A stretch of DNA of 35,271 nt from a virus. Position 1 is the first letter of the stretch. Each line of letters opens with the position of its first letter. The stretch spans positions 1-35,271 of IMG/VR virus record IMGVR_UViG_3300032516_000089. One strand, 5' to 3'. The translations under genes and the position numbers were made by a program. The notes below the pieces were generated by a model. The model was not told the origin of the DNA, searched no databases, and saw nothing but the letters and a program-made list of their open reading frames with translations. Shown here one piece after another: positions 1-35,271 of this stretch.

Positions 1-26
1 CCCTTTTGGCGTTTCAGTCTAATTCC
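1..26. repeat. terminal direct repeat, left copy (circular contig overlap)
   Basis: The first 26 bases are identical to positions 35246-35271. An exact, short end overlap of this kind is what an assembler leaves on a circular or circularly permuted molecule. The unit genome is therefore 35,245 bp, and the gene at 14-280 reads through to the region upstream of terS. A genuine packaged terminal repeat is less likely because the repeat is so short and cuts through a gene end. Confidence 0.85.
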
Positions 27-477: not shown

Positions 478-641
478 TTTTCCCCCTTTGTTTTTGGTAA
501 ACATAAATAATAATTTCCGGTTTCTTTTTTAAACTTTATGCTCTTGTCTTCAATTTTCTTTTCTCTTGCGTAAGTCAATAGTTTTTCCGGGTTTTTGTCT
601 ATTGCATACGTTCTGCCGTTAAACTCTATTTCTTTTATCAA
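474..641 (-). CDS. 55-aa hypothetical protein with TTG start
   Basis: No ATG is available, but a TTG at 639-641 sits right after AAAAAAGGGGGAAAA, the same ribosome site used by other genes here, so TTG is taken as the start. The product is 55 residues, lysine-rich and probably a small alpha/beta fold, with 'EIEFNGRTYAIDKNPEK' near its start. It ends TKGEK, because its last codons hold the ribosome site of the next gene, and its stop overlaps that gene's ATG (ATGA). No family is recognised. Confidence 0.6.
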   Translation of the reverse strand: MIKEIEFNGRTYAIDKNPEKLLTYAREKKIEDKSIKFKKETGNYYLCLPKTKGEK

Positions 642-684
642 TTTTCCCCCTTTTTTAAATTGCAGCAGTCGTCCGGGTTAGCAT

Positions 685-972
685 TTACATTTTCTCGATC
701 GGCTGAAAGCAGTCAGTCATTCCGCCAAGCCGGACGATCTGCGCGCCTTGCATACGCGCTTTCCGTATTTGACGCGCGACGTCGCTTATAGCAGCGATCT
801 TTGGCGTTTCGGCGTCCCATAGTTTACGAAATGATAATAAATGTTTTGAATAACAGTAAGCGCAGTTATGAAAGCAACCGCAACCGTAAGTATCGATCCT
901 TACCGGATATTTACAGCGGCTTTTTTCTGCGCCTGCCGGGATCTTTAAAACGCTGCCGAAATGTTTTTTCAT
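685..972 (-). pseudogene. truncated radical SAM protein (N-terminal stub)
   Basis: The 95-residue product carries a radical SAM cluster motif C33-x3-C37-x2-C40 in the context DTYGCGCFHNCAYCYS, typical of the spore-photoproduct-lyase-like branch. It continues to RLGGMTDCFQPIEKM, which corresponds to the second strand of the barrel, and then stops. The neighbouring full-length paralogue is 426 residues, so most of the barrel is missing. The start overlaps the upstream radical SAM gene as ATGA, with a weak AAGGA site, so it is still coupled to the cassette. Either a deletion removed its 3' part or it survives as a small cluster-binding protein. No continuation was seen in the other frames of the 43 bp before the next gene. 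Confidence 0.7.
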
Positions 973-2249
973 TTTTTATAATCCTTGTAGTAATAAATGA
1001 CGTCGCCGTTTGCGTCAAGTTTTTTAGGGATCAGTATTCCGCCAAAATATTTATATGGTGATCTATGCGCGTTCGGAGTATTCCATATTTCCCGGATAAA
1101 ATCGTATAAACTTTGATTTTGACGCAGCGCCCGGCTTTCGCTATTTAACACATTATACCCGGTTGTTCGTGTCCAAGGGATCTTTTTAAACATATCTAAA
1201 TATTTACTGATCTGCGAAAACTCGACGCGCCCGGTTTTTTTTGCGATCATAAGCGCTTCTGTAAATTGACCGCGGCAATAATTCCAACTTTCCGGCAATC
1301 CGCAACAAGATCCGTTATGACATTTTTCTTTATGGTTTGCGTCGCTTACATAAAATCTTAATCCGATCTTATCGCATAGCGCCGACATTTTTTCCATAAA
1401 AGGTTTTTTAACAAAATAGTTTAATCGGTAATATCCAGCGCCGGACGAATTCTTACGGTAATAATCCCATATATCATAACCGATTATTTCCGACATTTGT
1501 TTATATCTGTCTTTCAGTCGATCGTCAGCGCGTCCGTCCATACAAAAGAATTCCGTTGAAACTGCCGTTGCGCCGGCGTCCTTTGCCTGTTTTATTAGAT
1601 CTAAATATTCGTCCTTACGATCGCTTAAACCGATTATAAAGGGACGCAGCCGCAGCGTCGCGCCGCCTTTGTTTAATGACGTATATTTTCTTATAGCAGC
1701 GATCCGGCGCGCCGGACTGTCGACGCCTTTTTCCATTTCCTTTGCTGTTTTTTCGTTTAAGTTTATGATCGTAAACTTGCAATTCCAATTATCTTGATCT
1801 TTAAATAATTCTATATAGCGCGGATCTTCCATAAACCAAGTCGACTTTGTGCTAAAACATATCGGATAATTTATTGATTTTAAAAACTTTAATATTTCAT
1901 ACGTCGTTCCGTGCTTTCTTTCGTATTCGTCAAACTGATCCGCTAAGCCGCCGTATTGCATTACCTTTTTATCCCGGACATAATCAAAGAATTGACGATC
2001 GCCTTCTGATTTTGATTTTAAAAGAAATATATTTTTTACTTTCTCGACGTTTACGGACGTCAATTCTTTTACGTTCTGATAATCGACTTTCTCGTAAACA
2101 TTATTTTTATGCGCTGACTTAGACTTTTGAAAATAAGAAAAACAATATAAGCAATTATAACTGCATTTATTATAAGTGTCAAACGTCATAGGCATTGAAC
2201 AATCTAATAATTCTTGCGACCAGCGCGGCGATCCGTAATTGTTTTTCAT
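969..2249 (-). CDS. radical SAM enzyme, likely acting on modified DNA bases
   Basis: Start chosen at 2249 rather than 2261, because this ATG follows TTGGGGGAAACT and overlaps the upstream stop as ATGA. The 426-residue product has the S-adenosylmethionine-binding 4Fe-4S motif C29-x3-C33-x2-C36 in the context DTYNKCSYNCLYCFS. A glycine-bearing second strand follows (MQYGGLADQF), then a barrel-length region. Near the C-terminus lie four more cysteines (310, 315, 316, 325) that could hold a second cluster. The family makes a 5'-deoxyadenosyl radical and abstracts hydrogen from unreactive carbons. Coupling to a TAGT-like glycosyltransferase and a ParB-fold gene suggests action on DNA bases; that role is inference. 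A generic tRNA or peptide modifier is the main alternative. Confidence 0.85.
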   Translation of the reverse strand: MKNNYGSPRWSQELLDCSMPMTFDTYNKCSYNCLYCFSYFQKSKSAHKNNVYEKVDYQNVKELTSVNVEKVKNIFLLKSKSEGDRQFFDYVRDKKVMQYGGLADQFDEYERKHGTTYEILKFLKSINYPICFSTKSTWFMEDPRYIELFKDQDNWNCKFTIINLNEKTAKEMEKGVDSPARRIAAIRKYTSLNKGGATLRLRPFIIGLSDRKDEYLDLIKQAKDAGATAVSTEFFCMDGRADDRLKDRYKQMSEIIGYDIWDYYRKNSSGAGYYRLNYFVKKPFMEKMSALCDKIGLRFYVSDANHKEKCHNGSCCGLPESWNYCRGQFTEALMIAKKTGRVEFSQISKYLDMFKKIPWTRTTGYNVLNSESRALRQNQSLYDFIREIWNTPNAHRSPYKYFGGILIPKKLDANGDVIYYYKDYKK

Positions 2250-2971
2250 AGTTTCCCCCAATTAAATCGTATTTCTTTTTGACCGTGTTTTTCTACTTCC
2301 CGGACGCAGTCGCTTCCGTATTTGTTTTTTAAATAAGCGATCGCATTTGTCATTATTTCCGGCTGCTTATAGATCCCGGCAGCGCCGCCGTCCATTCCTT
2401 TCATTTTATGTTTAAACATATATTTATAATAGCAAGCCGTTTTGTAGCCGTCCCGGATCAGTTTAGCCGACATATCATAATCATTAAATATTTTTATCTT
2501 ATCGTCATAGCCGCCGACTGCGACAAGATCAGCCGTTCTGTTTATCATTATTCCCCAAGCGCCGATTTTTTCTTTTATATCTTCTTTCGTAAACCAATTA
2601 TGACCGATAAAAGATAACATAAATTGACTGTATTTCTTTGCTTGCATTATATTTATCATTTCCCTAAATACTTTATCAAGATCCGTCGGCTGATTTCTGC
2701 GATCGACTATTCCCCTAATATCGTCGTCAGAAAACATAAAATATTCTATTCTGTTTTCTGCTGCGTGCTTTAACATTTGATTTAATAAATACGGAAAGCC
2801 GCAGTCATTTTTAGGCATAACTATTATTTTATGCCAATGACTATAAAGCGCGGTATAATCTTCTTTTTCTTGCGGCTCAATAAATAAATGGATTGGATAA
2901 TATAATTTAGCCATAGGGAATAACAAGCGGCTTTTGCTGCCGATAAATACCGGGACGCTTATTTTATTCAT
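2246..2971 (-). CDS. TET-associated-type glycosyltransferase (TAGT/GREB1-like)
   Basis: A 241-residue GT-A-fold transferase. Features match the phage family related to the base-J glucosyltransferase: a YYPIHLFIEPQEKEDY segment (about 24-39), VMPKNDCGFPYLLNQML (51-67), an acidic metal and sugar-nucleotide motif DDDI at 82-85, then a GGYDD segment and conserved aromatic/histidine stretches toward the C-terminus. Known members add a sugar to oxidised 5-methylpyrimidines in DNA. No TET/JBP oxygenase was found here, so the acceptor is probably made another way. The gene overlaps the ParB-fold gene upstream and the radical SAM gene downstream by 4 bp each (ATGA). Family membership is from recall of motifs, not a search. 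A generic GT2 enzyme is the fallback. Confidence 0.75.
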   Translation of the reverse strand: MNKISVPVFIGSKSRLLFPMAKLYYPIHLFIEPQEKEDYTALYSHWHKIIVMPKNDCGFPYLLNQMLKHAAENRIEYFMFSDDDIRGIVDRRNQPTDLDKVFREMINIMQAKKYSQFMLSFIGHNWFTKEDIKEKIGAWGIMINRTADLVAVGGYDDKIKIFNDYDMSAKLIRDGYKTACYYKYMFKHKMKGMDGGAAGIYKQPEIMTNAIAYLKNKYGSDCVREVEKHGQKEIRFNWGKL

Positions 2972-3567
2972 ATAATTTTATATTTATTATTTATTATTGA
3001 AAATTGAATTACTTTCTGCGTCGCTTTTAATCCGATCTTATCCCGGAAAGCATTGACAGTTTCCGCGTCATCAAATTGCAGTATTAAATATTCCCCTTTG
3101 TTTTCGACTTCGCCTTGTATATCGACGTCCGGGATCTGATCTTTGCTATTGATCCTATTAAGCAGCGTCGCCAAAGACGTGTCCGGCGTTTTAAGATCGA
3201 CCTTAAAATCGTCTAAGTTAATGTCCAGCCCTTTTAACTGATCGGCTAAAAGATCTTCGACATAGAAACCAGCCCTGTCATTATCCGATAAACTAATTTT
3301 AACGCGTTCTGCTTCGTCTTTTACTTCTATTACGGTGATCCATACTTGCTTTATTTTCAATTCGCGCAGCGCGCGCAGCCGCATATTTCCGCCAAGCGTA
3401 ATATAACGATCGCCGGCGATCTCACAAAGAAGCGGCTTATATACGCCTAATTCTTTTATCTGACTTTTAAGCCGTTCAAGATCTTCCGGCTTTATATCGC
3501 GCGCGTTATCTTTCCAATTATCGATCTTATCTATGTCTATGATCTTTGACTTCTCAATTATTTTCAT
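2968..3567 (-). CDS. ParB/sulfiredoxin-fold protein
   Basis: The 199-residue product opens with a ParB N-terminal domain. 'LKSQIKELGVYKPLLCE' (about 33-49) and the phosphate/nucleotide-binding box GGNMRLRAL (59-67) correspond to the GxxRxxA motif of ParB CTPases and related kinases. Residues after about 115 are a distinct C-terminal part with no recognised family and no helix-turn-helix of a partition protein. There is no ParA gene, so plasmid-type segregation is unlikely. Phages often place this fold beside DNA methyltransferases and base-modifying enzymes. The archaeal serine kinase SerK also uses it, so a small-molecule or base kinase role is possible. It is the first gene of the modification cassette; its ATG overlaps the previous stop by one base. 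Confidence 0.8.
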   Translation of the reverse strand: MKIIEKSKIIDIDKIDNWKDNARDIKPEDLERLKSQIKELGVYKPLLCEIAGDRYITLGGNMRLRALRELKIKQVWITVIEVKDEAERVKISLSDNDRAGFYVEDLLADQLKGLDINLDDFKVDLKTPDTSLATLLNRINSKDQIPDVDIQGEVENKGEYLILQFDDAETVNAFRDKIGLKATQKVIQFSIINNKYKII

Positions 3568-3712: not shown

Positions 3713-4045
3713 TTAAAACGGCGGCTTATCGCTGTCAAGCGAATTAGTAAACTCTTCGTCCGTTTTGTATTTTGTCCCGGCTGACTGATCCGCCGGCTTA
3801 TTGTCCCGGTTTCTGAAAGTGTCAGCCGCCGGACAAGTCGAGAAATGCGACATATAACCTTTGCGCGCTTCATAGATCCATTTTCCCTTTTCGTCCTTTG
3901 TCCCGGTTGAAACTAAAAGAAACGCGGCGTCCGGGTTTATTGGGTGTGCCTTTAAGATCCCGGCTTTATTCCTTGCTATGACAAAGTTTATTTCCTTGCC
4001 GCAGCCCTTACATTTTGGTTGTATCCAAACTTTTTTTTCTTCCAT
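3713..4045 (-). CDS. 110-aa protein with putative zinc site
   Basis: The start follows AAAGGGGGAATA. Near the N-terminus is CKGCGKEINF (C12, C15), and around residue 72 is HFSTCP, giving a possible C-C-H-C zinc site. Between them is AHPINPDAAFLLVSTG, a strand-rich region. The C-terminal third is polar and likely disordered. This resembles small uncharacterised phage zinc proteins found in recombination and replication regions. No definite family or function. The stop overlaps nothing; 11 bp separate it from the next gene. Confidence 0.65.
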   Translation of the reverse strand: MEEKKVWIQPKCKGCGKEINFVIARNKAGILKAHPINPDAAFLLVSTGTKDEKGKWIYEARKGYMSHFSTCPAADTFRNRDNKPADQSAGTKYKTDEEFTNSLDSDKPPF

Positions 4046-4320
4046 TATTCCCCCTTTGTAAAATAATATCCGCAGCCGTCAATATTTGTCGGGACGTCCG
4101 GAAAGTCTTTACAGAAGCCCGGACGGCTTGCGTAATTTTTACATATCGCTTTGCCTTTCTTAAAATATAAATATCTGCATTTATCTTTTAGATCTATTCT
4201 TCCCCCTTTTAAAAAGACTTTTATTCTGACTATTATTTTCTCAATCGGTTTCATAGATCCGTAAGTATAATATGTTTGACAACATTTTCCGCAACGCTTG
4301 CAAGCGCCTTTCCGTTCCAT
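4045..4320 (-). CDS. YkgJ-like CxxCxxCC metal-binding protein
   Basis: Start set at 4320, where AAGGGGGAAAA directly precedes ATG, rather than the upstream ATG at 4368, which lies inside the methyltransferase gene. The 91-residue product contains CKRCGKCCQTYY near residue 7, then CRYLYF, a further C in AICKNYASRPGFCKDFP, and a late DGCGYYF. This cysteine pattern is that of the YkgJ/UPF0153 family, thought to bind zinc or an iron-sulfur cluster. Its biochemical role is unsettled. The gene ends KGE, and its stop overlaps the next start as TAATG. Confidence 0.75.
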   Translation of the reverse strand: MERKGACKRCGKCCQTYYTYGSMKPIEKIIVRIKVFLKGGRIDLKDKCRYLYFKKGKAICKNYASRPGFCKDFPDVPTNIDGCGYYFTKGE

Positions 4321-4330
4321 TTTTTCCCCC

Positions 4331-5119
4331 TTAAAATAATACTTCTTGTCGCAATCTTTCTTCCGCAATTTTACAGTATTTCGGACTTATTTCAATACCG
4401 ATAAATTTTCTTCCTAAATTCTTACAAGCAAGCGCGGTTGTTCCGCTTCCGGAAAATGGGTCAAGGATTATATTGCTTTCATTACTCCACGATAAAATAT
4501 GTTCCTTTGCAAGTTTTTCCGGAAATGTTGCGGGGTGCTGAAATACTGATTTATCTGATGATGATTTTCCATAACCGACATCATAAATCCAAACATTATC
4601 TTTAACCCTTTCGTCTTTTCCCATCTCATATTTCATATCAGAACAAGAACCATCTGCATTTCTTTGTGTTGATGATTTATGTTTTTTCCCAATAGTTTTT
4701 ACTTTTATCAAATTAGTTGTGTTTGGTGTTCCCTTGCTAAATATAAACATATATTCAAATACATTAAAATACCTATTTGACGGCGGAAAGGGAAAACTAT
4801 TTTTTTGATATATCATAGTATCGTGCAAATTAAATCCTATTTCTTTAAAATATAATGCTTGCTTGAAACTTGTTCCGGTTTCGCTTCCGTCAATTGTTGC
4901 GTCCCCGACAACCCAAACAACAACGCAACCGTTTTTAATTATTCGAAATATTTCTTTTGCTGTATTTTCAAAGTCAAAACTATATCCTTTATAGTCCCTT
5001 AAATTATCATACGGCGGACTTGTTAAAATCATATCAATAGAATTTTCCGGTATTCCCTTCATTACTTCAAGACAATCGCCGCATATAATTTTATTTATGT
5101 AGTCATCGGGATAGTTCAT
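4331..5119 (-). CDS. beta-class DNA methyltransferase (N4-cytosine or N6-adenine)
   Basis: The 262-residue enzyme has catalytic motif IV TSPPY at 33-37 near the N-terminus and the SAM-binding motif I DPFSGSGTT at 220-228 near the C-terminus. This order places it in the beta group of amino-methyltransferases, which add a methyl to the exocyclic amine of cytosine or adenine. The middle part, including PSNRYFNVFEYMFIFSKG and DNVWIYDVGYG, would hold target recognition. No restriction endonuclease lies beside it, so it is probably a protective orphan methyltransferase. It sits in a 1.6-kb stretch without any GATC, unlike the rest of the genome, which points to separate acquisition. It starts with an ATGA overlap. 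Confidence 0.9.
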   Translation of the reverse strand: MNYPDDYINKIICGDCLEVMKGIPENSIDMILTSPPYDNLRDYKGYSFDFENTAKEIFRIIKNGCVVVWVVGDATIDGSETGTSFKQALYFKEIGFNLHDTMIYQKNSFPFPPSNRYFNVFEYMFIFSKGTPNTTNLIKVKTIGKKHKSSTQRNADGSCSDMKYEMGKDERVKDNVWIYDVGYGKSSSDKSVFQHPATFPEKLAKEHILSWSNESNIILDPFSGSGTTALACKNLGRKFIGIEISPKYCKIAEERLRQEVLF

Positions 5120-33287: not shown

Positions 33288-34739
33288 TTAGAGTAATAAA
33301 GCGTTATTATTATTTATAAATGCTTGGACAGCCAGCGCGTTAGACCAAAAGGCGTCGCCGTGTCCGTCAGCCGTTTCCGGCGACTGTAAATTACCGTCGA
33401 CTGATAGGATCGATCGCGTTTGCCTTTCGTCGTTTAATAATATGATCGTCTTATTTCCGACTTTCTTATCAAACTCGGCAGCGATCATTTCTTTTCCGCC
33501 GGCTGTAAAAACAAACGGCTTCATTTCGTCCGGCAGTTCGCCGCGTTCCATAAATCCTTCAAACTCGCCGCGCGTGTTATCCCATAACATTTCGCTTATT
33601 CCGAAACGCCGGATCGCTGCTTTGAATATGTCGATCTGATTATTAAAGTCGACGCCGTCTAACCATATCGACGCGACTTGTATTAAATAAATTATATCGT
33701 CGTCCGGGACGGCTTCATAAACGGTTAAATGTGAAGGGTGTCGTTTCTTCCCTAAATCAGCGCCGGCAAAACATTCCCCGAATGCGTCGTCAGTTTCTTT
33801 TTTATACGGCGAATAATTTTTTAACTGCTTATCGATCCGCGCTTCGATCTCGCCGTGCGAAAAATAACCTTCTGCCGATCTGACCGGCTGCAACTGGTAT
33901 TCCCTTTGAAAGTTCTTTTTTCCTGTTTCGTTTAATTCTATGTCGATCAGTCTATCGAAAGGAAACTTCTCGATCCATAAAACTATTTTCTTTTTGCGAT
34001 CTATTATCGCCGGGCATAACTTCCAATTCCAGCCGGGCAGCGTCCTTAACTTAAACATAATATCCGTTTCGTCTTGCGACGTGCCGACGACGTGTAGAAA
34101 GCCGCCTTCTTTCGGCAACGACGTTATTTCTGCTTCAAAGATCTGCGTTATTTTCTCGATCTGCGTAAGATCCAGTTTCTTCTGCGGATCTCTTAGGATA
34201 TCGTCGCATATTACGCCGTCCGGGTGTTTACCGCGCTTAAATGACTGGACGCCAGCCGGCTTTACGCTGACGATATGTTCGCCGTTTAAATATTCTATTA
34301 TGCTTTCGGCTGTCGGCTTTAAATCCCGGATATGATTAAAGAAAGGATTACATTGTATATATTGTTTTATTCTTTTTATTTTCTCGCAAGCCAGTTCGTC
34401 AGAATACATAATATATAAATATTCCGAAACCATTTTATTTTCTATATCGCTGCGGAAGATCAGCCAAGCGACATAACCGGCTATAACAGTCGTCTTACCG
34501 TGTTTACGCGCTGCCAGCGTGCAAGTTTTATTATACCGCTGTAAGCGATCGCATAAATCATTAAGCCAAGAGCCGCTGACGTATTCGCCTTCGATTATCT
34601 GCAAGGAAATTGAAAATATTGTATCAAAAAAGAATACAAAATCTTCACGCGCCCGGCGCGATATTTCCCGGCTTAATAGGAAGTCGTCGTCTTTTAAACT
34701 CTTCTCGTAATTTATCGCTGTCCCATTTTGCATAAACAT
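33288..34739 (-). CDS. terL: terminase large subunit
   Basis: Start set at 34739, where GTGGGGAAA precedes ATG, in place of the upstream ATG at 34748. The 483-residue protein has an ATPase domain with Walker A AARKHGKTT (76-84) and Walker B GVICDDIL (about 174-181), plus a coupling region GTSQDET. The nuclease domain has FAGADLGKKRHPSHLTVYEA (first metal acid) and a late DGHGDAFWSNALAV, where acids bind the second metal. It drives DNA packaging into the head and cuts the concatemer. It overlaps the end of terS by 95 bp. Confidence 0.92.
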   Translation of the reverse strand: MFMQNGTAINYEKSLKDDDFLLSREISRRAREDFVFFFDTIFSISLQIIEGEYVSGSWLNDLCDRLQRYNKTCTLAARKHGKTTVIAGYVAWLIFRSDIENKMVSEYLYIMYSDELACEKIKRIKQYIQCNPFFNHIRDLKPTAESIIEYLNGEHIVSVKPAGVQSFKRGKHPDGVICDDILRDPQKKLDLTQIEKITQIFEAEITSLPKEGGFLHVVGTSQDETDIMFKLRTLPGWNWKLCPAIIDRKKKIVLWIEKFPFDRLIDIELNETGKKNFQREYQLQPVRSAEGYFSHGEIEARIDKQLKNYSPYKKETDDAFGECFAGADLGKKRHPSHLTVYEAVPDDDIIYLIQVASIWLDGVDFNNQIDIFKAAIRRFGISEMLWDNTRGEFEGFMERGELPDEMKPFVFTAGGKEMIAAEFDKKVGNKTIILLNDERQTRSILSVDGNLQSPETADGHGDAFWSNALAVQAFINNNNALLL

Positions 34740-35178
34740 TTTCCCCACTTACGTTCGTGATATTTTGGTTTAAATAAAAGTTTGTATTGTCCCGGTCTAA
34801 TCCGTGAATGCGCGCGATCCGGGACGCTGCTTCGTTTATTTCGTGTATATATCCGACTTTTGCATTTTCTGGTATTCCGACTTGATTGACTTTTTGAAAA
34901 CACGTTCGGATTACTTCTTTTAGGTTTGCGTCAATTTTTTCCTTGACGTCTTCGATCGGCTCTAACGCTGCGATCGCTTTAAGATCTTCTGCGACTGTCG
35001 CCGACGTGATATTAAATTGCGCTGCGATTTCTGACTTTATTACTCCCATACTCCAAAGGCGATATTCTTTTAAACGTCTTGCCCATAACTCCCGGCTGGA
35101 CGCAGTCGATCTGCCGCCGTGCGATCCCGGCTTGCCGCTGCTGGTTGTCTTAATTAGTTTATTCCCTTTTGTTTTCAT
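34645..35178 (-). CDS. terS: terminase small subunit
   Basis: The 177-residue protein has a basic N-terminus, a helix-turn-helix region (about 38-70, RLWSMGVIKSEIAAQFNITSATVAEDLKAI), a central coiled helical part for oligomerisation and a polar, basic C-terminus. This fits phage small terminases that bind the packaging site. It directly follows promoter P2: transcription would start within about 2 nt of the ATG, so the message would be nearly leaderless. The site AAAAGGGAATAA within codons 4-7 has no start codon at the right distance. The packaging site is probably in or near this gene. Confidence 0.78.
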   Translation of the reverse strand: MKTKGNKLIKTTSSGKPGSHGGRSTASSRELWARRLKEYRLWSMGVIKSEIAAQFNITSATVAEDLKAIAALEPIEDVKEKIDANLKEVIRTCFQKVNQVGIPENAKVGYIHEINEAASRIARIHGLDRDNTNFYLNQNITNVSGENVYAKWDSDKLREEFKRRRLPIKPGNIAPGA

Positions 35179-35245: not shown

Positions 35246-35271
35246 CCCTTTTGGCGTTTCAGTCTAATTCC
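35246..35271. repeat. terminal direct repeat, right copy
   Basis: Identical to positions 1-26. It contains the last codons of the gene at 14-280, confirming that the sequence wraps around. No separate feature is encoded here. Confidence 0.85.

Follow-up and report, generated by a model that had tools for sequence, protein, structure and literature searches.

The virus record IMGVR_UViG_3300032516_000089 of IMG/VR, analyzed here over positions 1 to 35,271 (35,271 nucleotides, referred to below as the window), carries a compact cassette encoding a ParB_N-domain protein, a glycosyltransferase of the TAGT family and a radical S-adenosylmethionine (SAM) enzyme that we call rSAM1. This cassette is probably a DNA-base hypermodification module in which a radical SAM enzyme performs the first step instead of a TET/JBP dioxygenase or a thymidylate-synthase-type (TS-type) hydroxymethylase. 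We give roughly even odds to a more specific function of rSAM1. In this reading it is a DNA thymine hydroxylase of the radical SAM type, which would do the work of TET/JBP anaerobically: it would make 5-hydroxymethyluracil in DNA without oxygen, for a sugar or an amino acid to be attached to, across a large group of phages that are mostly uncultured. Phage hypermodification is a known kind of pathway and, as far as could be checked, its first enzyme is new here: no earlier mention of the rSAM1 family was found in the literature searched, the main earlier computational survey lying outside its coverage.

TET/JBP enzymes require oxygen, and rSAM1 would bear on the question of how a virus whose host is a strict anaerobe could arrive at hydroxymethyl-derived bases once its DNA has been replicated. 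If this is true, a radical SAM enzyme taking the place of TET would be a third route to hypermodified DNA and a new chemistry, in which the methyl group of thymine in DNA is activated without oxygen. It would also offer a large unexplored set of enzymes for DNA writing and labelling and, for phages of gut and rumen, a prediction that can be tested directly.

Conservation of the rSAM1 cassette

Relatives of rSAM1 were confirmed in IMG/VR (203, of which the best 80 were used) and in genome contigs (19). There was no match in 50,697 named phage records, where a relative used as the query gave weak partial matches only. The genome-contig loci, many of them from rumen and gut, belong to Methanobrevibacter, Bacteroides, Phocaeicola, Prevotella, Selenomonas, Clostridia, Victivallales and similar taxa. 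These taxa are anaerobes, and all 19 loci in cellular genomes fall in taxa of this type. One of the carriers is the cultured Selenomonas ruminantium S137, with a cassette of the kinase type (L099).

All loci were translated in six frames, and their open reading frames (ORFs) were searched with profiles for ParB, TAGT, kinase, amino acid:DNA transferase (ADDT), acetyltransferase and SAM synthetase, among others. After deduplication, 71 loci have 2.5 kb or more of upstream sequence. In these, rSAM1 is accompanied by ParB and TAGT (23/71), by a kinase and ADDT (35/71; an acetyltransferase is also present in 24, and ParB is missing in one), by ParB and a kinase (7/71) or by neither decorator (6/71); ParB is near rSAM1 in 70 of the 71. 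The gene order ParB-(TAGT or kinase/ADDT)-rSAM repeats in dozens of diverse contigs, the TAGT and rSAM1 genes overlap or abut in 25 loci, and in two loci (L009 and L011) they are fused to encode a single 698-aa protein. The arrangement is therefore not due to chance.

The ADDT of these cassettes is PF18724 (E = 6.5e-9 in L018), while the kinase weakly matches the 5-hmdU DNA kinase PF18748 (E = 4e-4), an enzyme that acts on a 5-hydroxymethyl pyrimidine in DNA (PMC6449724). Where their substrate is known, both decorators use a 5-hydroxymethyl pyrimidine; since rSAM1 is the partner that they share, it is the obvious candidate source of this handle. TAGT and ADDT never occur together in the 71 rSAM1 loci or in the TET set described below. 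A strict exclusivity of the two decorators was rejected: a few rare cassettes, L214 (338-4331) and L206-L209, combine ADDT, kinase and TAGT with one first enzyme (rSAM1 or TS-type).

Replacement of TET by rSAM1

Phage TET/JBP-TAGT and TET-kinase-ADDT cassettes have the ParB, TAGT, kinase and ADDT families and a compact arrangement in common with the rSAM1 cassettes. In loci gathered with TET profiles, ParB precedes TET in most cases, standing directly before it, and TAGT or ADDT plus kinase follow. In rSAM1 cassettes, by contrast, the 2-oxoglutarate/iron (2OG-Fe) dioxygenase TET is gone and a radical SAM enzyme stands in its slot. Among 45 well-flanked TET loci, one holds rSAM1 (L105, the same record as L005, which is considered below).

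The first enzymes also exclude one another. A scan for ADDT, blind to the first enzyme, yielded 80 loci, 49 of them with good flanks: rSAM1 was present in 23, TET in 14, a TS-type enzyme in 8 and none in 4, with two together in 0, the zero overlap being the informative part because the query alignment held rSAM1- and TET-type ADDTs and the proportions are biased. Sampled TS and TET calls were confirmed by Pfam. When the loci were collapsed at 50% ADDT identity (6/3/4/0), 3.3 overlaps were expected and 0 observed (permutation p = 4e-4); at 95% and 70% collapse, p was below 5e-5 each.

Other enzymes that might make a handle are rare in rSAM1 records. Among 40 rSAM1 records, TET (PF12851) was found in one, TS-type hydroxymethylase (PF00303) in none, ThyX in one and C5-cytosine methylase in four; the TS search was over cut-off in 0/26 TET records and detected the enzyme in phage M6. 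The window, with its terminally repeated ends, contains no TET/JBP gene, in agreement with an earlier reading of this DNA from sequence alone (the sequence-only reading), and no TS-type hydroxymethylase, ThyX or C5-cytosine methylase gene was found in it. These results speak strongly for rSAM1 as the occupant of the first-step slot in the hypermodification cassette. Its role as maker of the sugar-accepting handle, proposed in the same reading, is supported by the slot exchange with TET, the exclusivity of first enzymes, the rarity of other handle enzymes and the fold described below.

In the TS-type route of phages M6 and ViI (hydroxymethylase, 5-hmdU DNA kinase and ADDT), kinase and ADDT, two decorator families also present in rSAM1 cassettes, work on a hydroxymethyl group, and M6 likewise has a radical SAM gene. 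The TS-type handle, however, is made on free nucleotides, by the type of enzyme for which the 40 rSAM1 records were negative. The cassette of the window differs further from this route in having no kinase or ADDT: neither was detected within 6 kb of rSAM1 in the window, whereas both occur in other rSAM1 cassettes.

SAM synthetase goes with rSAM1 and not with TET: 31/91 rSAM1 loci have its gene at a distance of 6 kb or less, compared with 0/81 TET loci (Fisher p = 2e-10, with loci counted without correction for relatedness). TET does not use SAM; a radical SAM enzyme, if each modified base cost it one SAM, would raise the demand.

Sequence and structure of rSAM1

Residues of rSAM1 are numbered here from a TTG start at 2261 (430 aa). 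The Radical_SAM profile (PF04055) matches the protein with E = 1.6e-6, at 28.8 bits just below the gathering cut-off of 29.5. The three cysteines of the CX3CX2C motif (C33, C37 and C40) are kept in 91/91 relatives, as are C21, C240, C319 and C320, a second group that could hold an auxiliary cluster serving as electron acceptor. A sequence-based search of the PDB gave no useful match. The best NCBIfam match is the PA0069 / Rv2578c family (E = 1.5e-13), yet the score is far under the family cut-offs (50.5 vs 360 bits), and we know of no established function for this family; the spore photoproduct lyase (SPL) family TIGR04070 was not among the NCBIfam matches at E up to 0.01.

The AlphaFold model of rSAM1 (pLDDT 92.8, pTM 0.92) matches radical SAM structures (partial TIM barrel). 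Its best solved matches are all SPL (Z 19.4-19.6), followed by SuiB (Z 16.1) and pyruvate formate-lyase activase (Z 15.6). The closest solved fold is SplB (Z 19.6, 267 aligned residues), but identity across the structural alignment is 14%, and rSAM1 differs from SplB in an extra C-terminal region and in the second group of invariant cysteines. Around C141, the hydrogen-donor cysteine of the Bacillus subtilis enzyme, a weak sequence alignment of rSAM1 with SPLs sets GGLAD opposite AATSD, at a site where the SPLs used have no cysteine either.

Proposed mechanism

SPL works on thymine in DNA via a thymine-methyl radical; in its C141A mutant this radical is trapped by SO2- (giving TpTSO2-), and each turnover takes about one SAM (PMC3742179). 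From this and other established chemistry we infer a thymine target, a radical mechanism, a hydroxyl handle, a ParB guide and a sugar for the cassette of the window. In a first step, the ParB-fold protein would bind the phage DNA and bring rSAM1 to it. rSAM1 would then cleave SAM, and the resulting 5'-deoxyadenosyl radical would abstract a hydrogen from the 5-methyl group of a thymine in DNA; oxidation of the thymine radical and capture of water would yield 5-hydroxymethyluracil or a comparable handle at C5. An SPL-type pocket could do so by oxidizing the thymine-methyl radical rather than returning the hydrogen to it. In the third step, TAGT would move a sugar onto the handle to form a base-J-like glycosylated base. 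In sister phages the handle would instead be phosphorylated and an amino acid added, by the kinase and ADDT, often with an acetyltransferase.

Alternative functions of rSAM1

Several points weigh against a handle-making rSAM1. In one record (L005:7378-13607), ParB-rSAM1 and ParB-TET-PLP enzyme-ADDT-kinase lie on opposite strands, so that a second handle enzyme may be present beside rSAM1 in one genome. The viral records may be incomplete, and the SAM synthetase association could have other reasons. Direct sequence similarity between rSAM1 and SPL is weak (E = 0.0023). Finally, rSAM1 is distantly related to the radical SAM protein of M6 (profile comparison, E = 9e-6; no meaningful BLASTP match), which reportedly is a downstream isomerase, as Lee et al. 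2022 are said to have found.

An unlikely alternative, though one to be weighed, is that rSAM1 installs a handle other than 5-hydroxymethyluracil, such as one on a cytosine base, or a C5 aldehyde, a one-carbon unit or a radical-added cofactor fragment. The great diversity of radical SAM chemistry would allow this, as would the extra radical SAM genes of some cassettes (L006, L007 and rSAM2, described below) and the use of cytosine-derived and already glucosylated bases by TAGT-type enzymes (PMC13390438). Against it, a hydroxymethyl group is the known or predicted substrate of both decorator classes, and the closest fold is that of the thymine-specific SPL. Cytosine as the target via a C5 methylase was rejected, this methylase being limited to the 4/40 records noted above.

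It is also quite unlikely that rSAM1 is a downstream tailoring enzyme (for example, a thymidine hypermodification isomerase of the M6 type), with the handle coming from an unrecognized enzyme or from the host. In M6 the radical SAM protein is encoded beside kinase and ADDT genes, together with a TS-type hydroxymethylase, and the combination of TET, kinase, ADDT, PLP enzyme and rSAM1 in L005 would fit such a role. In the 23 TAGT-type cassettes, including that of the window, there is no amino-acid transferase and hence nothing to isomerize; moreover, rSAM1 excludes TET and TS-type enzymes in the ADDT scan, and in 39/40 rSAM1 records no TET or TS gene was detected.

That rSAM1 serves no DNA decoration, being an SPL-like DNA repair or an RNA- or protein-modifying enzyme while TAGT has its target elsewhere, is highly improbable. 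In favour of this reading, SPL is the nearest fold of rSAM1, the annotation 'DNA repair photolyase' is frequent among phage radical SAM genes, and the solved folds nearest to the TAGT model include those of the teichoic acid transferases TarP/TarS. Against it, rSAM1 is persistently linked and in places fused to TAGT, linked to ADDT and hydroxymethyl-kinase-like genes and exchanged with TET in its slot, and such partners would be superfluous for repair.

Organization of the cassette in the window

The four ORFs that the sequence-only reading had described at 685-3567 are real and lie on the minus strand (Table 1). The overlaps it had noted at the three gene junctions (2968-2971, 2246-2249 and 969-972) are each exactly ATGA; this requires that the radical SAM gene start at ATG 2249 (426 aa) and not at TTG 2261. 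The motifs GGNMRLRAL, DDDI, EPQE and CxxxCxxC are present as stated there, and a Pfam profile search of the proteins recovered ParB_N (PF02195), TAGT (PF20691) and Radical_SAM (PF04055).

Table 1. Features of the rSAM1 cassette and ends of the window
Feature	Position	Strand	Basis
rSAM2 C-terminal tail remnant (NANPDDCCNLKK...)	638..685	-	frame translation, out of frame with the 95-aa stub
rSAM2 N-terminal remnant (stub), 95 aa	685..972	-	about 49-56% identical to rSAM2 N-termini
rSAM1, SPL-like radical SAM enzyme, 426 aa, proposed oxygen-independent C5-handle installer	969..2249	-	invariant cysteines, model
TAGT family GT-A glycosyltransferase, 241 aa, proposed base glycosylation	2246..2971	-	PF20691, E = 3e-8
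ParB_N-domain protein, 199 aa, proposed DNA-binding/delivery partner	2968..3567	-	PF02195, E = 7e-8
26-bp direct terminal repeat, copy 1	1..26	no strand	identical to 35246-35271
26-bp direct terminal repeat, copy 2	35246..35271	no strand	identical to 1-26

The ParB_N-domain protein passes the gathering cut-off of PF02195 (32.8 bits vs 26.3), and we propose that it is the DNA-binding or delivery partner of the handle-installing enzyme. A kinase function, which had been one suggestion for it, is not supported: the kinase of sister cassettes is a protein of its own, of the P-loop type and related to 5-hmdU DNA kinase. In the TS-type ADDT loci (L206, L208, L209, L211, L223, L224, L248 and L270), ParB was found with our own profile in 0/8, an absence whose weight is limited by profile sensitivity, since there are rSAM1 records too in which PF02195 fails to pick up ParB. 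As a hint, these ParB-less loci are suggestive of ParB accompanying first enzymes that work on DNA and not on nucleotides.

The glycosyltransferase is above the gathering cut-off of PF20691 (34.3 bits vs 27.5) and matches PHROG 842 (E = 3e-22), so that its sequence family is TAGT and not one of a cell-envelope sugar pathway, the placement that would have spoken against base glycosylation. Its structure model has a GT-A fold (pLDDT 85). The DDDI motif, the acidic metal motif of this fold, occupies residues 82-85; D83 and D164 are invariant in 13 TAGTs and D82 is nearly so. The nearest solved folds are generic GT-A enzymes such as TarP/TarS, which carry little weight either way. TAGT is proposed to glycosylate the base. 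In some TAGT-type cassettes (L020, L040, L042, L044, L055 and L071), HAD/choline-kinase-like and cytidylyltransferase-like genes lie between ParB and TAGT, near rSAM1. This insertion is limited to cassettes of TAGT type and suggests a nucleotide-activated donor that is not a sugar or is a modified sugar.

The fourth ORF, a 95-aa radical SAM stub, had been listed as a component of the cassette; it cannot be retained as a working one. It corresponds to the N-terminal third of a radical SAM protein of 278-285 aa, rSAM2, that is found in 11 loci. Because the matching C-terminal tail of rSAM2 directly follows the stub in another reading frame, the stub is, judging from these alignments, an internally deleted rSAM2 gene, and a functional small protein was rejected. 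rSAM2 is homologous to rSAM1 (profile comparison, E = 4e-20), is optional in cassettes and, like rSAM1, has the PA0069 / Rv2578c family as its best NCBIfam match (E = 1.6e-27).

Variant cassettes and neighbouring genes

Other-type radical SAM proteins are encoded inside the cassettes of L006 (5957-7258) and L007 (4312-5235), one of them with a B12-binding-like N-terminus, which suggests more carbon chemistry on the base. In a Methanobrevibacter metagenome-assembled genome (L084:132-3209, an archaeon-assigned contig), the order is ParB-acetyltransferase-rSAM1-SAM synthetase without kinase, ADDT or TAGT, and direct acetylation of the handle is possible there.

Because the same 26-bp sequence is present at both ends, the 35.2-kb record can be joined end to end, and the phage genome is probably complete. 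The terminase large subunit gene is at 33288-34748, and the cassette is upstream of the terminase genes across the terminal junction, as in relatives. Just upstream of the cassette, at 4045-4368, is a gene for a protein with a CxxCxxCC domain (PF03692) that may bind zinc or iron, adjoined by an N6/N4 DNA methylase gene at 4331-5119.

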